A DNA stretch of 64,000 nucleotides, from contig NZ_CP139247.1 of the NCBI RefSeq assembly GCF_034087045.1, forward strand, positions 1,054,001 through 1,118,000. The letters are read 5' to 3'. The notes beneath the pieces were generated by a model. The model worked only from the letters and a program-made list of their open reading frames with translations. It had not been told where the DNA came from and made no database searches. Below are positions 4,070 through 62,678 of this stretch, one piece after another. Position 1 is the first letter of the stretch. Every line of letters starts with the position of its first letter. The stretch is from Chitinophaga sancti. Lineage in GTDB: Bacteria; Bacteroidota; Bacteroidia; Chitinophagales; Chitinophagaceae. The position numbers were made by a program, and so were the translations under genes.

Positions 4070-4850
4070 GCGGGATGATCTGCATTTCAGTCAATTTGTT
4101 TTTTAATTGAGTAGCGTACCTGTGTGCGAATTCCTCCCGTTCGCTGGCAGGTATGCTTCTATATAGAACCCATCGTTGATCCCAAGCATCATAGCCTTCA
4201 TCCTCATTTCCAGGGCGCTCCACCACTGTCAGGTAATGTACATAATGCCCTATTTCATGAGGCAAACTCCTGTATAATTGTGTGTTCCGCACATGCTCCG
4301 GTGTCAACGCTGCCGTCAGCGACCTGCCATCGTCTACAAAAAGATGTCCATCTTCTTTGAGCCGGTTTATTTCTTTTTGATCATTTAACGCGAGGGATCT
4401 GGCCCATTTCAGTGGCTTTGTATAATCGGCAGCTTCCAGAATAATAGCAGGCCCGTAATTCTTTTCAAACTCATATGAATATATCAGCCGTCCCCATACA
4501 GGAGATAGTATATTTTCCTTTCTTTTGGGCTGACGGAGTATGATGAATTTCAGACCTTTACAATCTTCAGGAGTAATGTGCTCAATTACTGTTGCAATAT
4601 CTTCAATAGAACAGGCATGTTGTGAATCAGATCTTGTTTCTTCTACTACAAACAGGAGCTCATTCCCATTGATGGCCACCTCATGTTTCGTATAATTCCC
4701 CAGACGTTCATAAAAGCCCTTCAGATCTGGACTACGGGGAATAGTCAGCTTATTAGCCTGACCATGGCCCTGCTTTTTAGTACCGATATTCCTATTTCTT
4801 CTTGACGGGTTGAACATAAAACAAGTATACAAAAACAGGACGACAATCAT
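4023..4850 (-). CDS. Putative HEIGH-motif metalloprotease-like protein
   Basis: A 275-residue protein. LPHEIGHYVHYL near residues 198-209 contains a zincin-type HExxH site, and acidic residues follow (GNEDEGYDAW), one of which could be the third ligand. The first ~12 residues are hydrophobic (MIVVLFLYTCFMF) and are followed by SRRNRN, so this is either a short membrane anchor or the real start is the ATG at 4817. The middle part (residues 60-190) is not recognised. A peptidase role is inferred from the HExxH motif only. It is divergent from the next gene. Confidence 0.6.
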   Translation of the reverse strand: MIVVLFLYTCFMFNPSRRNRNIGTKKQGHGQANKLTIPRSPDLKGFYERLGNYTKHEVAINGNELLFVVEETRSDSQHACSIEDIATVIEHITPEDCKGLKFIILRQPKRKENILSPVWGRLIYSYEFEKNYGPAIILEAADYTKPLKWARSLALNDQKEINRLKEDGHLFVDDGRSLTAALTPEHVRNTQLYRSLPHEIGHYVHYLTVVERPGNEDEGYDAWDQRWVLYRSIPASEREEFAHRYATQLKNKLTEMQIIPLTAMTRESHSDTENP

Positions 4851-56793: not shown

Positions 56794-56890
56794 TGATCTG
56801 GTTTAGGGGGTAAAGATATTACATCCCGTTCAGGTTTGTGAATCCGGGTTGAGTTGGAAATCCGGTAGCATATCTTGCCCATGAACATAT

Positions 56891-57001
56891 AGGTGACCCG
56901 GTGGTAACTCGCAGATAAGCCGTAGATAACCCGCATCTATATAGATGCGGGTTATCTACGGCTTATTGGCGGCTTATATGCGGGTTATAGGCGGGTTATC
57001 T
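56891..57001. repeat. 11-bp unit array with 52-bp perfect palindrome
   Basis: Five direct 11-base units of the form GCGGGTTATCT run from 56947 to 57001 without gaps. Four units of the reverse form (AGATAACCCGC type) run from 56891 to 56934. A 12-base palindrome ATCTATATAGAT (56935-56946) lies between. The inner units match so well that 56915-56966 is a perfect 52-base palindrome. Located in the divergent gap between tmk and the MutS-like gene. The period equals that of the array at 1319. Confidence 0.92.
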
Positions 57002-57116
57002 CCGGGAGAGTGCTATGGATGAGGGATACAGATGAAGGTGTTATTTTCTGAATAGGCTTTAACATAACCTTAAGGGAGTTAAACATTATTTTTAATGTCT
57101 ATAATCCAGTGACTGT

Positions 57117-59158: not shown

Positions 59159-59413
59159 TTAATAATGATATCTACATTGTAAGATAAGAATAGCATCATC
59201 CAATACTTTATACACTAACCGATGCTCTTGATCTATTCTTCTCGACCTGCAACCCGTTAAATTTTCCTTTAGTGCTTCTGGTTTTCCCAAACCTTCAAAT
59301 GGCTGACGCATCGTATCTTTTATCAGCTCATTAATTTTCTTGAGGATTTTCTTATCTGTCTTTTGCCAATACAAATAATCCTCCCACCCGTTTTGGTCCC
59401 AACTTAATTTCAT
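59159..59413 (-). CDS. yoeB: Txe/YoeB family toxin
   Basis: An 84-residue RelE-superfamily endoribonuclease that cleaves mRNA in the ribosomal A site. MKLSWDQNGWEDYLYWQKTD at the start, GLGKPEALKENLTGCRSRRI near 41-60, and the end CRYHY (His and Tyr of the active site) are all typical of YoeB. ATG overlaps the antitoxin stop by one base (TAATG). Located between the tRNA-Met gene and its partial copy. Confidence 0.94.
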   Translation of the reverse strand: MKLSWDQNGWEDYLYWQKTDKKILKKINELIKDTMRQPFEGLGKPEALKENLTGCRSRRIDQEHRLVYKVLDDAILILQCRYHY

Positions 59414-59667
59414 TAATCGTCGATTAATTCATGTTCTTCATTAATACCATTATTTGTTCTTTCAATCGCCTCCATTAAACGAGTTCTGTTTTTCTCTGAC
59501 TTCATAAGGTGTAATGTTTCCAAAATAGAATTATATTCTTCCAAAGAAATAATTACAACACTTTTATCTCCGCCTCTGGGCACAATAAGCGTATCATGGT
59601 TTTCTGTTACATTATCCAAATGCGCTTTTAGTTGTTGCCTAAACTCGCTATAGTTTACAACTTGCAT
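59413..59667 (-). CDS. yefM: YefM/Phd family antitoxin
   Basis: An 84-residue antitoxin starting at ATG 59667 (MQVVNYSEFRQQLKAHLDNV). The N-terminal dimer/DNA-binding part is followed by SLEEYNSILETLHLM (about 48-62) and an acidic C-terminal tail (NEEHELIDD) that wraps the toxin. It should neutralise YoeB and repress the operon. Confidence 0.93.
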   Translation of the reverse strand: MQVVNYSEFRQQLKAHLDNVTENHDTLIVPRGGDKSVVIISLEEYNSILETLHLMKSEKNRTRLMEAIERTNNGINEEHELIDD

Positions 59668-59793
59668 AAACACGTTATTTTAAAATATGTCTGAGCATAA
59701 AAAATGCTCAGAATGAAAAAAAAAGTTCGCAAATACGTACTTAAATCCGTACAAAATTACGGAATAACTTTGAGATGAACAAGTAAAAACAAA

Positions 59794-60008: not shown

Positions 60009-62678
60009 TTATTCTACCTCCTCTGTCTCGATATAGAAATTCTCATCATCTATATCGAAGTCCGCTGCTGCCTGATTTTGAAGGGTCAGCGTTTTCCATT
60101 CAGTGGTAGGGTAGATCAATTCATGATTTTTTATTTTTACCGGCATCCGGAAATTGGGAACATCAGCTACCCAGCGGTAACGGACCATGAGAGTGGTGCC
60201 TTTTTCGGAAAGGGAATATTCTAAACGGGGAACCCGGGTGTAATGAAGGTATTGATTGAATAAATAGTGATAATCGTTTCCTGTGAAGTCACAGATAAAC
60301 TGTTCCAGCTCATCAGCAGATAAGGTCTGATAGCGAAAATGTTGCTGTATAGCTAATAATAAGCGATTCCAGAGCGAAGTGTCATTGATCACGTTTTGTA
60401 AGGTAAACAGCATTAGGCTTCCTTTTGTGTACATGTCGCTAATGTCATAGAAGATATTATTCACATTGTATACCCCGGTGACTGGTCGGTTGTTTTTTAC
60501 CTGCTCCCGCTGGTCGTTTAGAAACTCGCGGGCAGCGGCTTCGCCATCGCGGCAACCGATATAGAGGCTTTCTGCATAGGTGGCGAAGGCTTCATGGATC
60601 CACATGTCTGCCATGTCTTTACAACTGATGTTGTTTCCCCACCACTCATGGGCCGATTCATGCCAGACCACAAAGGCGAATTCAGGATGTGGATCGTTGG
60701 GGATCCGACCCACACAGACGCCGCTTTGGTGTTCCATGGGGTAAAGGCTTTCTACTAAAGTAAAGCTGTCTTTGGGAAAAGGGTAGGCACCGAAATGCTG
60801 CTCATAACAAGATAACATGGCGGGAACTTCTTTGAAGTATACTTTTGCCTGCTCCAGGTGGTAGGGCATGACATAATAATTCACTCCCTGATCCCTGTAA
60901 TGGATGTATTTTCCAATACTGAAGGTTACATTGTAATTATTAATAGGGTAACTAACCGCCCATTCGAACCTGGTTTTGTGATCAGAAATAGGGATTTGGC
61001 GTTGTAATTGTCCATTGGAGACTTCGGAAAAACCGGAAGGGACGGTGATCCAGATCTGCATACTATCCGGTTCATCTGATAAATGATCCTTGCAAGGCCA
61101 CCATAGGCTAGCCCCTGAACCCTGACAAACAACTTGTGCCCAGGGATTTCCCAGGTCATCTTTGTCCCATAAGACGCCGCCGTTCATACTGATGCTTTTG
61201 TCCGGGACCTGAGGGATGCCTTCATAATAGATGGTGATTTCTTCTATGGAGCCGACAGGTTGCACGCCTGGAAATTTTACAAAGACAGCATTTGCTTCGC
61301 GGGTGAAGGTCAATGACTGGTTTTTGAAAATGATTTCGTTGATTTTCATATTAGCATATAGGTCGATCTGCATTTGATCGAAGGGAGATATGACTTTAAA
61401 GCGGATCTTATTGTTCCCGCTGATGCGTTGGCGATCCAGGTCTATATCCGCATCCAGATGGTAGAAAGTGACGTCATAGCAGGAGCGGAGTGGGGACAAC
61501 ATTCCCCTGAGTGTATCAGCTTGGGTAAAATGCTGGTGAGGGGCGGAAAGGCTGGTATCTTGCTTTAGAGAAAAGGACCTGATTGATTGGAAGGTATCCT
61601 GTGGTAGAGAAAAGGACTTTACTGACCGGGATGTATCCTGCTGTAAGGACAAGGATTTGACTGATTGGAAGGTATCCTGTAGTAGAGAAAAGGAATTTAC
61701 TGACTGAAAAGCATCCTGCTGTAAAGACAAGGATTTGACTGATTGGAAGGTATCCTGTAGTAGAGAAAAGGAATTTACTGACTGAAAAGCATCCTGCTGT
61801 AAAGACAAAGATTTTACAGCCTGTAAAGAATCCTTCAATAAAGACACACTTTTTACCGACAGAAAAAAATCCGCCCGCCAGGCTACATCTTTTAAATGTC
61901 TCTTATTACTATTAATCACCGTCTCCCAATGCCGCCTTACATCCTGCAAATAATATTTCCCATTTTCCTGCTGATAAGTCACAATCATCTGAATCTGCTC
62001 AAAATCCATGGATGCTCGGATAAATTTTGACATTATGGTATACCGGATCCCCCCTCTGCCATGCTTATTTACATGCCTGATCCCTGCCGGACTTGCCACT
62101 AATTCACACCTCACCAGTGCCAGACTGGCCGTATCAATAAATAACCGCCCACTCACAAATCCATTTTTGCTGTTGTTCTTAGGTACCACCACTATTACCA
62201 CCTGCTCCCCCAGCAAAGAGTCAACATAATAATTATAGTACCGGAAATAACTGGGATTTAATATACTGTACCTGGTATTCGCATATTTAATAAGGTCTTC
62301 ATGCAAAGCGCCGGCTGGGGCATTGGAAATATTACTGATCCAGTTATAAAACTGAAAGTCAGGGTTGGAAAACATCTTTTTACGGCCCGCCTTCGTCACT
62401 TTCCACTGATCCCCCTTTATTTCCAGTTCGGATTCATTATAGTTGAGCGTATCACCCGCCAACCGGATATCTTCTTTATAAAAGGCCCTCATTGTCACCA
62501 GGCTGGTATCATAGTTCTTAGGAATAGCAGCAATCATTCTTTTGACTATCTCCAGCCCCTGGCCAGGGTGAACAGCGACCTCCCTGAGGTGAATGATCTG
62601 GGGAAAAAGGGAGGTGGGGAATAACAAAAAGAACAGGAGAAATAACCCTTTCAATAACCGGTGAAACAAATACTTCAT
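60009..62678 (-). CDS. M1 family metallopeptidase with internal repeat linker
   Basis: An 889-residue exported protein. ATG at 62678 gives a signal peptide (LLKGLFLLFFLLFPTSLFPQ); a TTG start further up would overlap the regulator gene. Residues ~20-265 form an N-terminal domain of unknown function with a carboxypeptidase-like/outer-membrane flavour. About 273-380 is a tandem 13-residue repeat. The M1 aminopeptidase part follows: MEHQSGV near 650 in place of GAMEN, HESAHEWWG near 672-680 (zinc histidines) and the third ligand in WIHEAFATYAE near 697. It probably trims peptides in the periplasm. The regulator just upstream probably belongs with it. Confidence 0.88.
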   Translation of the reverse strand: MKYLFHRLLKGLFLLFFLLFPTSLFPQIIHLREVAVHPGQGLEIVKRMIAAIPKNYDTSLVTMRAFYKEDIRLAGDTLNYNESELEIKGDQWKVTKAGRKKMFSNPDFQFYNWISNISNAPAGALHEDLIKYANTRYSILNPSYFRYYNYYVDSLLGEQVVIVVVPKNNSKNGFVSGRLFIDTASLALVRCELVASPAGIRHVNKHGRGGIRYTIMSKFIRASMDFEQIQMIVTYQQENGKYYLQDVRRHWETVINSNKRHLKDVAWRADFFLSVKSVSLLKDSLQAVKSLSLQQDAFQSVNSFSLLQDTFQSVKSLSLQQDAFQSVNSFSLLQDTFQSVKSLSLQQDTSRSVKSFSLPQDTFQSIRSFSLKQDTSLSAPHQHFTQADTLRGMLSPLRSCYDVTFYHLDADIDLDRQRISGNNKIRFKVISPFDQMQIDLYANMKINEIIFKNQSLTFTREANAVFVKFPGVQPVGSIEEITIYYEGIPQVPDKSISMNGGVLWDKDDLGNPWAQVVCQGSGASLWWPCKDHLSDEPDSMQIWITVPSGFSEVSNGQLQRQIPISDHKTRFEWAVSYPINNYNVTFSIGKYIHYRDQGVNYYVMPYHLEQAKVYFKEVPAMLSCYEQHFGAYPFPKDSFTLVESLYPMEHQSGVCVGRIPNDPHPEFAFVVWHESAHEWWGNNISCKDMADMWIHEAFATYAESLYIGCRDGEAAAREFLNDQREQVKNNRPVTGVYNVNNIFYDISDMYTKGSLMLFTLQNVINDTSLWNRLLLAIQQHFRYQTLSADELEQFICDFTGNDYHYLFNQYLHYTRVPRLEYSLSEKGTTLMVRYRWVADVPNFRMPVKIKNHELIYPTTEWKTLTLQNQAAADFDIDDENFYIETEEVE
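61530..61860 (-). repeat. 39-bp coding tandem repeat
   Basis: About eight units of 39 bases encode 13-residue units of the form S-x-S-L-x-Q-D-x-x-x-S-V-x. A double unit of 78 bases at 61648-61725 is repeated exactly at 61726-61803. Located in the linker of the M1 peptidase gene. Confidence 0.92.

Follow-up and report, generated by a model that had tools for sequence, protein, structure and literature searches.

We analyzed a 64-kb window of the genome of the soil bacterium Chitinophaga sancti (G000; a single contig of 8.32 Mb), in which a mirrored array of 11-bp units lies between two divergent genes, tmk (PF02223) on the left and a gene with MutS domain V (PF00488) on the right. The array consists of three parts: a weak arm of reverse units, a palindromic center, and a strong arm of direct units (Table 1). 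This layout agrees with the initial annotation of the window in the four reverse and five direct units, the 11-bp register, and the divergent tmk and MutS-like genes, with the exception of the center, which had been given as 12 bp and measures 14 bp. The comparison of the 11-bp step with one helical turn holds as an approximation and is not exact. The perfect palindrome of 52 bp described there is present, and the runner-up in the window measures 16 bp. A palindrome of 52 bp is not known to be notably unstable. The lag scan of the window (score of at least 14) revealed two period-11 arrays, in the region 56890–57002 and at 1314–1391, and TRF at its lowest threshold detected both, together with two short weaker arrays at 4846 and 45146.

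Table 1. Parts of the mirrored array in the window
Feature	Position	Strand	Basis
Weak (left) arm: four reverse 11-bp units, consensus NNNATAASCCG; third unit outward from the center degenerate	56890..56933	-	Sequence read and alignments
Center CATCTATATAGATG, 14 bp, palindromic, flanked by the innermost CCG and CGG	56934..56947	.	Sequence and alignments
Strong (right) arm: five direct 11-bp units CGGSWTATNNN	56948..57002	+	Sequence and alignments
Perfect palindrome, 52 bp, with 26-bp arms	56915..56966	.	Palindrome scan of the window
Right edge TTATCTCC followed by a tail of weak conservation (GAGAGTGCTATGGATG in this copy), common to the G000 copies	56996..57030	+	Alignments

Copies of the array in the genome and in relatives

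BLAST of the array against G000 gave 27 matches at 14 places, with 19/19 candidates scored. The 14 copies align gap-free across 140 columns, indicating that the array is beyond chance. Read by eye, the strong arm has five units in 12 of the 14 copies and six in the other two (L008 and L010), while the unit-counting rule gives five units in 11 copies and six in 3. The centers of the other copies are mostly CCTCTTTATAGATG or CCTCTATATAGATG, and the spacer is mostly AGG. The profile search of G000 to E=10 gave 36 hits, including the 14 full copies at 100–117 bits; the remaining 22 comprise 20 inside the same 14 copies and two at chance level near 12 bits. No clear decayed relics were found among the hits seen (BLAST and the profile search, in which the best 150 of 1,426 candidates were scored). 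By eye, the 14 places are not clearly patterned by strand, and the replication origin could not be placed from the GC skew of the window and 20 stretches; accordingly, we make no claim of a replication-strand bias for the mirrored family. Neither the phage collection nor, at a threshold of E 1e-5, the set of 72,556 plasmid records contains a match to the window copy; drifted versions were not sought among the plasmids. The mirrored 11-bp element was not recognized in any title or abstract start among the papers listed by the literature searches, which is no proof of its absence.

The search for further copies in the genome and its relatives, proposed in the initial annotation, was positive, with 14 in G000 and more in other species and genera. 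A chance local duplication, for which nothing speaks other than what the window itself shows, is ruled out by these genome-wide copies and their counterparts elsewhere, and its probability is virtually nil.

In the genus, BLAST matches were found in 16 of 60 genomes, and the core pattern matched 18 of 79, of which G008 has a different array according to the printed matches, G075 was unexamined, and G072 and G076 were examined at the tmk locus only. The backward-read control matched in 4/79 genomes (6 matches). Both searches miss drifted copies, as G026 has arrays and yet 0 pattern hits. In an order-wide sample, the pattern matched 6 of 396 genomes, of which three belong to the genus, two (G243 and G203) to further genera of the same family, and one (G416) to a different family. 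In G243 and G203, the mirrored layout is built of different unit sequences; G416 was excluded from the family, as its array is direct-only. Among the matches listed in a wider listing were Chitinophaga, Flavisolibacter, Paraflavitalea, and Niastella, together with unrelated taxa (Paraburkholderia, Streptomyces, Bacilli, and others; unexamined). The profile matched all 12 genus genomes chosen from the 16 with BLAST hits, with the best 150 candidates scored per genome and each array usually matched on both strands; halving the matches gave an estimate of about 6–27 copies per genome (14 found in each of G000 and the sister genome G014). At the tmk loci, the MutS-like gene lies inside the retrieved flank in 5 of 30, the array is present in 5/5 of these, and there was no empty site to compare.

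The architecture of the array is kept across these genomes, and many of its positions are conserved. When aligned by their centers, 94 copies from eight genomes hold the 11-bp register. Exactly five strong-arm units are present in 82 of 90 copies from six genomes, and the recognizable weak-arm units mostly number two to four per copy; in 6 of the 7 G010 copies, the counting rule finds none. The mirrored layout was also read by eye at 18 loci of G020, G068, G066, G243, and G203, and the centers elsewhere are about 12–14 bp by eye. The spacers vary by genome, being often CTG in G050 and G031 and ATA in G010 and G026, while G020, G066, and G068 have further versions of the units and centers, and the tails to the right of the array differ from the G000 tail in the other genomes profiled. 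As the register and unit number hold across genomes with differing spacers, units, and centers, the spacing and layout are kept while the sequence drifts, which bears out the second expectation of the initial annotation.

Constraint on the unit and probable exchange between copies

Comparison of the G000 and G014 orthologs revealed that the unit core CGG..TAT is constrained and the spacers are fast-changing. In the right arm, 7 of 360 core sites are changed and 51 of 300 other positions (12 ortholog pairs, with 2 of the 14 dropped for a change in unit number), and in the left arm, 16 of 336 core sites and 56 of 280 other positions (14 pairs). The flanking intergenic DNA is changed at 269 of 3016 sites; the corresponding figure for coding sequence is skewed by an insertion in the L005 pair. 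Indel events amount to 3 per 1504 array sites (two of them in pairs with differing unit number) versus 19 per 3016 intergenic sites. In the core-intact units of six genomes, CGG and TAT are mostly separated by GT, CT, or GA, and CA never occurs at these two bases.

All 14 copies of G014 lie at collinear, same-strand places, with aligned pieces mostly 92–98% identical to G000. Among G000, G014, G031, and G050, 11–12 loci are orthologous, as assigned by neighboring genes and confirmed by flank nucleotide identities of 74–99%. The right-arm identities of orthologs and non-orthologs are the same in the diverged pairs (0.75 and 0.75 for G000–G031, 0.80 and 0.80 for G000–G050, and 0.85 and 0.85 for G031–G050), and paralogs inside one genome show identities of 0.84–0.91. 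The close pair G000–G014 retains an ortholog signal in the right arm (0.90 versus 0.84, a difference reached by 0/1000 permutations). Because the strong arms of diverged orthologs are hardly more alike than those of non-orthologs, while copies of the same genome are alike, the strong arm undergoes concerted evolution.

In G014, a central block of 52 bp is identical at three unlinked loci and occurs in 0 of the other 91 of the 94 aligned copies. The block spans 6–11 differences from the G000 ortholog of each locus, and the reciprocal block scan in G000 gave one 12-bp run. To judge from these alignments, the shared block looks like the trace expected of ectopic gene conversion. In the right arm, transversions exceed transitions (36 to 22), while the flanks show the reverse (173 to 231, flank segments with >80 mismatches excluded); the excess fits an exchange of existing variants.

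The palindrome, which the initial annotation had made its key point, is not supported as a functional feature and was rejected as such, being rare within the family. Perfect arms of 26–32 bp are present in 2/14 copies of G000, 0/14 of G014, 2/26 of G050, 1/14 of G055, 0/15 of G031, and 0/7 of G010. Pairing of each copy's own arms exceeds arm-shuffled pairing in G000 (reached by 4/500 shuffles) and G014 (14/500) and is no better than the shuffles in G050 (237/500), G055 (410/500), G031 (493/500), and G010 (403/500). Given the scarcity of perfect long arms and the restriction of above-shuffle own-arm pairing to G000 and G014, the base-perfect palindrome is incidental, and what persists is the mirror symmetry of whole units. 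The same measurements bear on an RNA element, in which a transcribed hairpin would act as an attenuator, processing site, or small RNA. The strong fold of the window copy (-73.7 kcal/mol, z -10.2) and the arm pairing above shuffled in the two close genomes are in line with such an element. Against it stand the four genomes without this excess, G-U pairs with no clear excess over shuffles in any of the six genomes, an orientation relative to genes that is not fixed, and Rfam, which gives no match at the array and in the window only two tRNAs and a TPP riboswitch. An RNA element is thus very improbable.

Mobility, gene context, and other repeats

Analysis of G050 provided signs of movement. Nine copies are homologous beyond the array, and an end resembling a terminal inverted repeat (TIR), GGTCGTGTAaCAtTTTG, occurs in 8 of the 26 copies, at both ends in four (L066, L068, L070, and L116) and at one end in four. 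In the two-ended copies, the TIR-like ends are 284–410 bp apart, and outside them lie 8-bp near-duplications, which match by eye at 7/8, 6/8, 8/8 (after a one-base shift), and 7/8 positions. Another near-duplication of 8 bp is probable by eye at L102; duplications were sought in G050 only. Because these copies carry matching TIR-like ends and near-duplications, some G050 copies seem to have moved as units resembling miniature inverted-repeat transposable elements (MITEs). In G000, the TIR has 0 places at ≤1 mismatch (control: one match), the best TIR scores equal the background, and it is absent from all 14 copies; the arrays examined that are inherited across species are kept there without TIR ends. 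No transposase was recognized by eye in the 1.5-kb flanks of the other TIR-like sites of G050, with no family search on those open reading frames (ORFs).

These ends raise the main rival explanation, a purely selfish MITE-like element in which the array would be the internal sequence of a non-autonomous transposon, perhaps the internal binding sites of its transposase, without host function. The ends in 8 of 26 G050 copies, the four two-ended copies with 8-bp near-duplications, the homology common to nine copies, and a relic search that scored the best 150 of 1,426 candidates all leave room for it. It is opposed by the lack of the TIR in G000, the persistence of arrays at 11–12 inherited positions (in G000 without TIRs), the lack of decayed relics among the G000 hits, the constrained core CGG..TAT, and the autonomous element not found by eye at the TIR-like sites in G050. 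We consider this explanation unlikely. MITEs resemble some G050 copies in the TIR-like ends and 8-bp near-duplications, unlike the G000 arrays, which are without TIRs and at inherited positions with the array kept.

A mover of another kind would be the RAYT (Y1) transposase of a REPIN/BIME-type element. REPINs have in common with the array the inverted arrangement, intergenic position, likeness within a genome, and drift between genomes, according to the excerpt of PMC3116915. They differ in that REPIN/BIME-REP elements consist of two short inverted REP palindromes, while here five and about four 11-bp sites form two arms. The RAYT family PF01797 has 0 matches in G000; of the 18 genus genomes that bear the pattern, 16 lack it (the exceptions being G075 with nine matches and G015 with one weak match), while it is present in 17 of the other 61. 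The RAYT mover was therefore rejected for G000 and these 16 genomes, and an element of this type is scarcely credible.

Further sequence features were noted. In G031 (C. silvisoli), an IS3-like remnant lies ~70 bp right of the array center in 8 of the 12 copies aligned (15 in total), namely L136, L137, L138, L139, L140, L142, L144, and L148, in one orientation and with several truncation lengths; the label was judged from the sequence, with no family search. In G031, this element may insert preferentially at the edge of the array. A companion block right of the array, approximately TCCTGRTATAGGTTTACAC..TTAATAAATCCTG..GTTTACAATC, is present in L070 (G050), L136, L137, and L148 (G031), and L221 and L223–L225 (G020), and there is perhaps another short MITE-like family, with the end GGTAGTGTATCAATTTGAATT, at L232, L234, and L239.

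In terms of gene context, the 94 copies comprise 37 flanked by divergent genes, 44 by tandem genes, and 11 by convergent genes, with 2 more located within an ORF; convergent placements number 0 of 14 in G000 and 4 of 14 in G055. The background intergenic gaps of 200–600 nt in a 464-kb sample comprise 23 divergent, 44 tandem, and 9 convergent of 76. These classes come from mechanical ORF calls, and some orthologous loci were classed differently, so the convergent count includes miscalls. The neighbors include tmk, an ECF sigma factor, an rpoD-type sigma factor, SRP54, malic enzyme, hisG, lipoate ligase, pseudouridine synthase, and TetR and AraC regulators. The Pfam search of neighbors covered 12 of the 14 G000 loci (L011 and L020 were outside), in two of them only one gene of the pair, and three genes were without any family.

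This context bears on a classical regulon operator, with a CarH-, SARP-, or OmpR-type regulator on tandem 11-bp sites controlling the adjacent genes. The excerpts of PMC9304148 and PMC5930380 describe tandem 11-bp repeats in CarH operators and an 11-bp format as classical for SARP regulators, respectively, and some neighbors are genes of the TetR, AraC, and ECF-sigma types. The neighbors have no common theme, though, and their context equals the background; the CarH unit nnnnTnnACAn differs from CGGSWTATNNN, and about nine sites in a fixed mirror exceed the site number of the compared operators. Such an operator is decidedly unlikely.

Several features lie apart from the mirrored family. A second, direct-only 11-bp array family (TTCGANTGTTG / TTCGACGCTTG / TTCTATACTCA) occupies 13 places in G000, one of which is the window array at 1314–1391; the others are at 213093, 333727, 411882, 581078, 1978943, 2981828, 3826391, 3894271, 4097322, 4202151, 7492442, and 7915117. 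It is forward at ten places between 0.2 and 4.1 Mb, reverse at 4.20 and 7.49 Mb, and forward at 7.92 Mb, and its pattern gave 65 matches versus 23 for the backward control. An unlike array, apart from this family, is at G000 7342298. Among periods 5–40 in the 464-kb sample, period 11 gave the most rows (6). In the window, two small ORFs at 59159–59673 resemble by eye, with no family search, a toxin-antitoxin pair of the YoeB/YefM type, and a 39-bp tandem repeat at 61554–61872, within an ORF of 906 aa, corresponds to a 13-residue repeat.

A putative binding array and its meaning

CarH, SARP, and R1 parC demonstrate that oligomeric binders have an established format of tandem 11-bp sites. The parC repeats of plasmid R1 are arranged as two blocks of five. 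This centromere, bound by ParR, has 11-bp repeats as in the array, ten direct repeats flanking the promoter according to the title of a cited reference; it is a plasmid site adjoining parM and parR, while the array occurs in about 6–27 chromosomal copies per genome and is mirrored. No par-like genes were found beside the arrays among the Pfam-searched neighbors at 12 of the 14 G000 loci. In the operators of CarH, a MerR-type protein, an oligomer binds along one face of direct repeats that follow each other in steps of 11 bp, and tandem 11-bp repeats are likewise present here; the CarH operators have three or four nnnnTnnACAn repeats at carotenoid promoters in the source excerpt, while here mirrored CGGSWTATNNN units stand at unrelated genes. 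SARP operators combine a 7-bp site with a 4-bp spacer, giving a cooperative arrangement with the same 11-bp period, and have two or three sites in the case compared in the excerpt of PMC5930380, fewer than the array. The TAACTGA arrays of Beggiatoaceae and some Bacteroidetes are, as here, multi-copy intergenic short repeats without a downstream theme; as far as their source extract goes, they are heptamers, nearly all direct, with a proposed RNA role, unlike the mirrored 11-bp array. None of CarH, SARP, and R1 parC matches the array in unit, number, mirror layout, or setting.

Taken together, we tentatively favor, at slightly short of an even chance, an interspersed repeat of mobile origin, the maintained part of which would be a putative cooperative binding array for an oligomeric DNA-binding protein, homogenized by recombination. 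Around a short center, the maintained part would have five 11-bp sites pointing one way and about two to four recognizable sites pointing the other. Each 11-bp site would receive one DNA-binding domain of the protein, the domains of an arm lining up on roughly the same face. The copies may have been seeded via a transposon-like route and would be kept alike by recombination between them, for which cleavage of a hairpin formed by the palindromic center may be the trigger. The initial annotation had named an operator, a nucleoid site, or a mobile repeat; this was the right short list, from which the evidence favors a mobile-derived repeat with a constrained core resembling protein-binding sites.

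Several observations weigh against the putative binding array. No candidate binding protein was found, and binding is what we infer. The substitution rate of the whole array equals that of intergenic DNA (0.091 versus 0.089), so the constraint rests on the core positions and the layout; CGG itself drifts in the G010 and G026 copies, and AA stands between CGG and TAT in 14 of the 64 core-intact G031 units. The outer left arm (units 3–4) is without homogenization, its paralogs being 0.48–0.55 identical, like all other comparisons except the close pair, as are left units 1–2 in G031; there is a possible weak ortholog signal between G014 and G050 (reached by 45/1000 permutations), and the direction of change in the 52-bp block is unpolarized by an outgroup. 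The gene context is indistinguishable from the background (11/94 convergent versus 9/76), and no functional theme was seen among the neighboring genes. The genus can do without the mirrored element, given that the core pattern matches no more than 18 of the 79 genus genomes, although drifted versions like those of G026 escape the pattern. The grades given to the binding array and to the selfish element reflect that the relic search scored limited candidates and that the left arm is little homogenized.

It is also conceivable, though quite unlikely, that the arrays are chromosome-wide inherited sites, mirrored for one oligomeric protein whose specificity would co-evolve with the sites in each lineage, the sites staying alike through breaks that the palindromic centers provoke and that are repaired from other copies. 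If so, the family would parallel, in bacteria, satellite DNA that co-evolves with the protein binding it, and its role would lie in chromosome architecture or segregation and not in gene control. Short dispersed bacterial elements are usually explained by copying with RAYT or insertion sequences; here the array position is inherited, the sequence is seemingly exchanged sideways between unlinked copies, and the REPIN mover is missing. Two questions thereby become testable in harmless soil bacteria: by what means dispersed sequences of ~110 bp are kept homogeneous, and what protein requires five sites one way and about four the other. The split between spacer and core, together with the variants of each genome, provides ready-made specificity controls.
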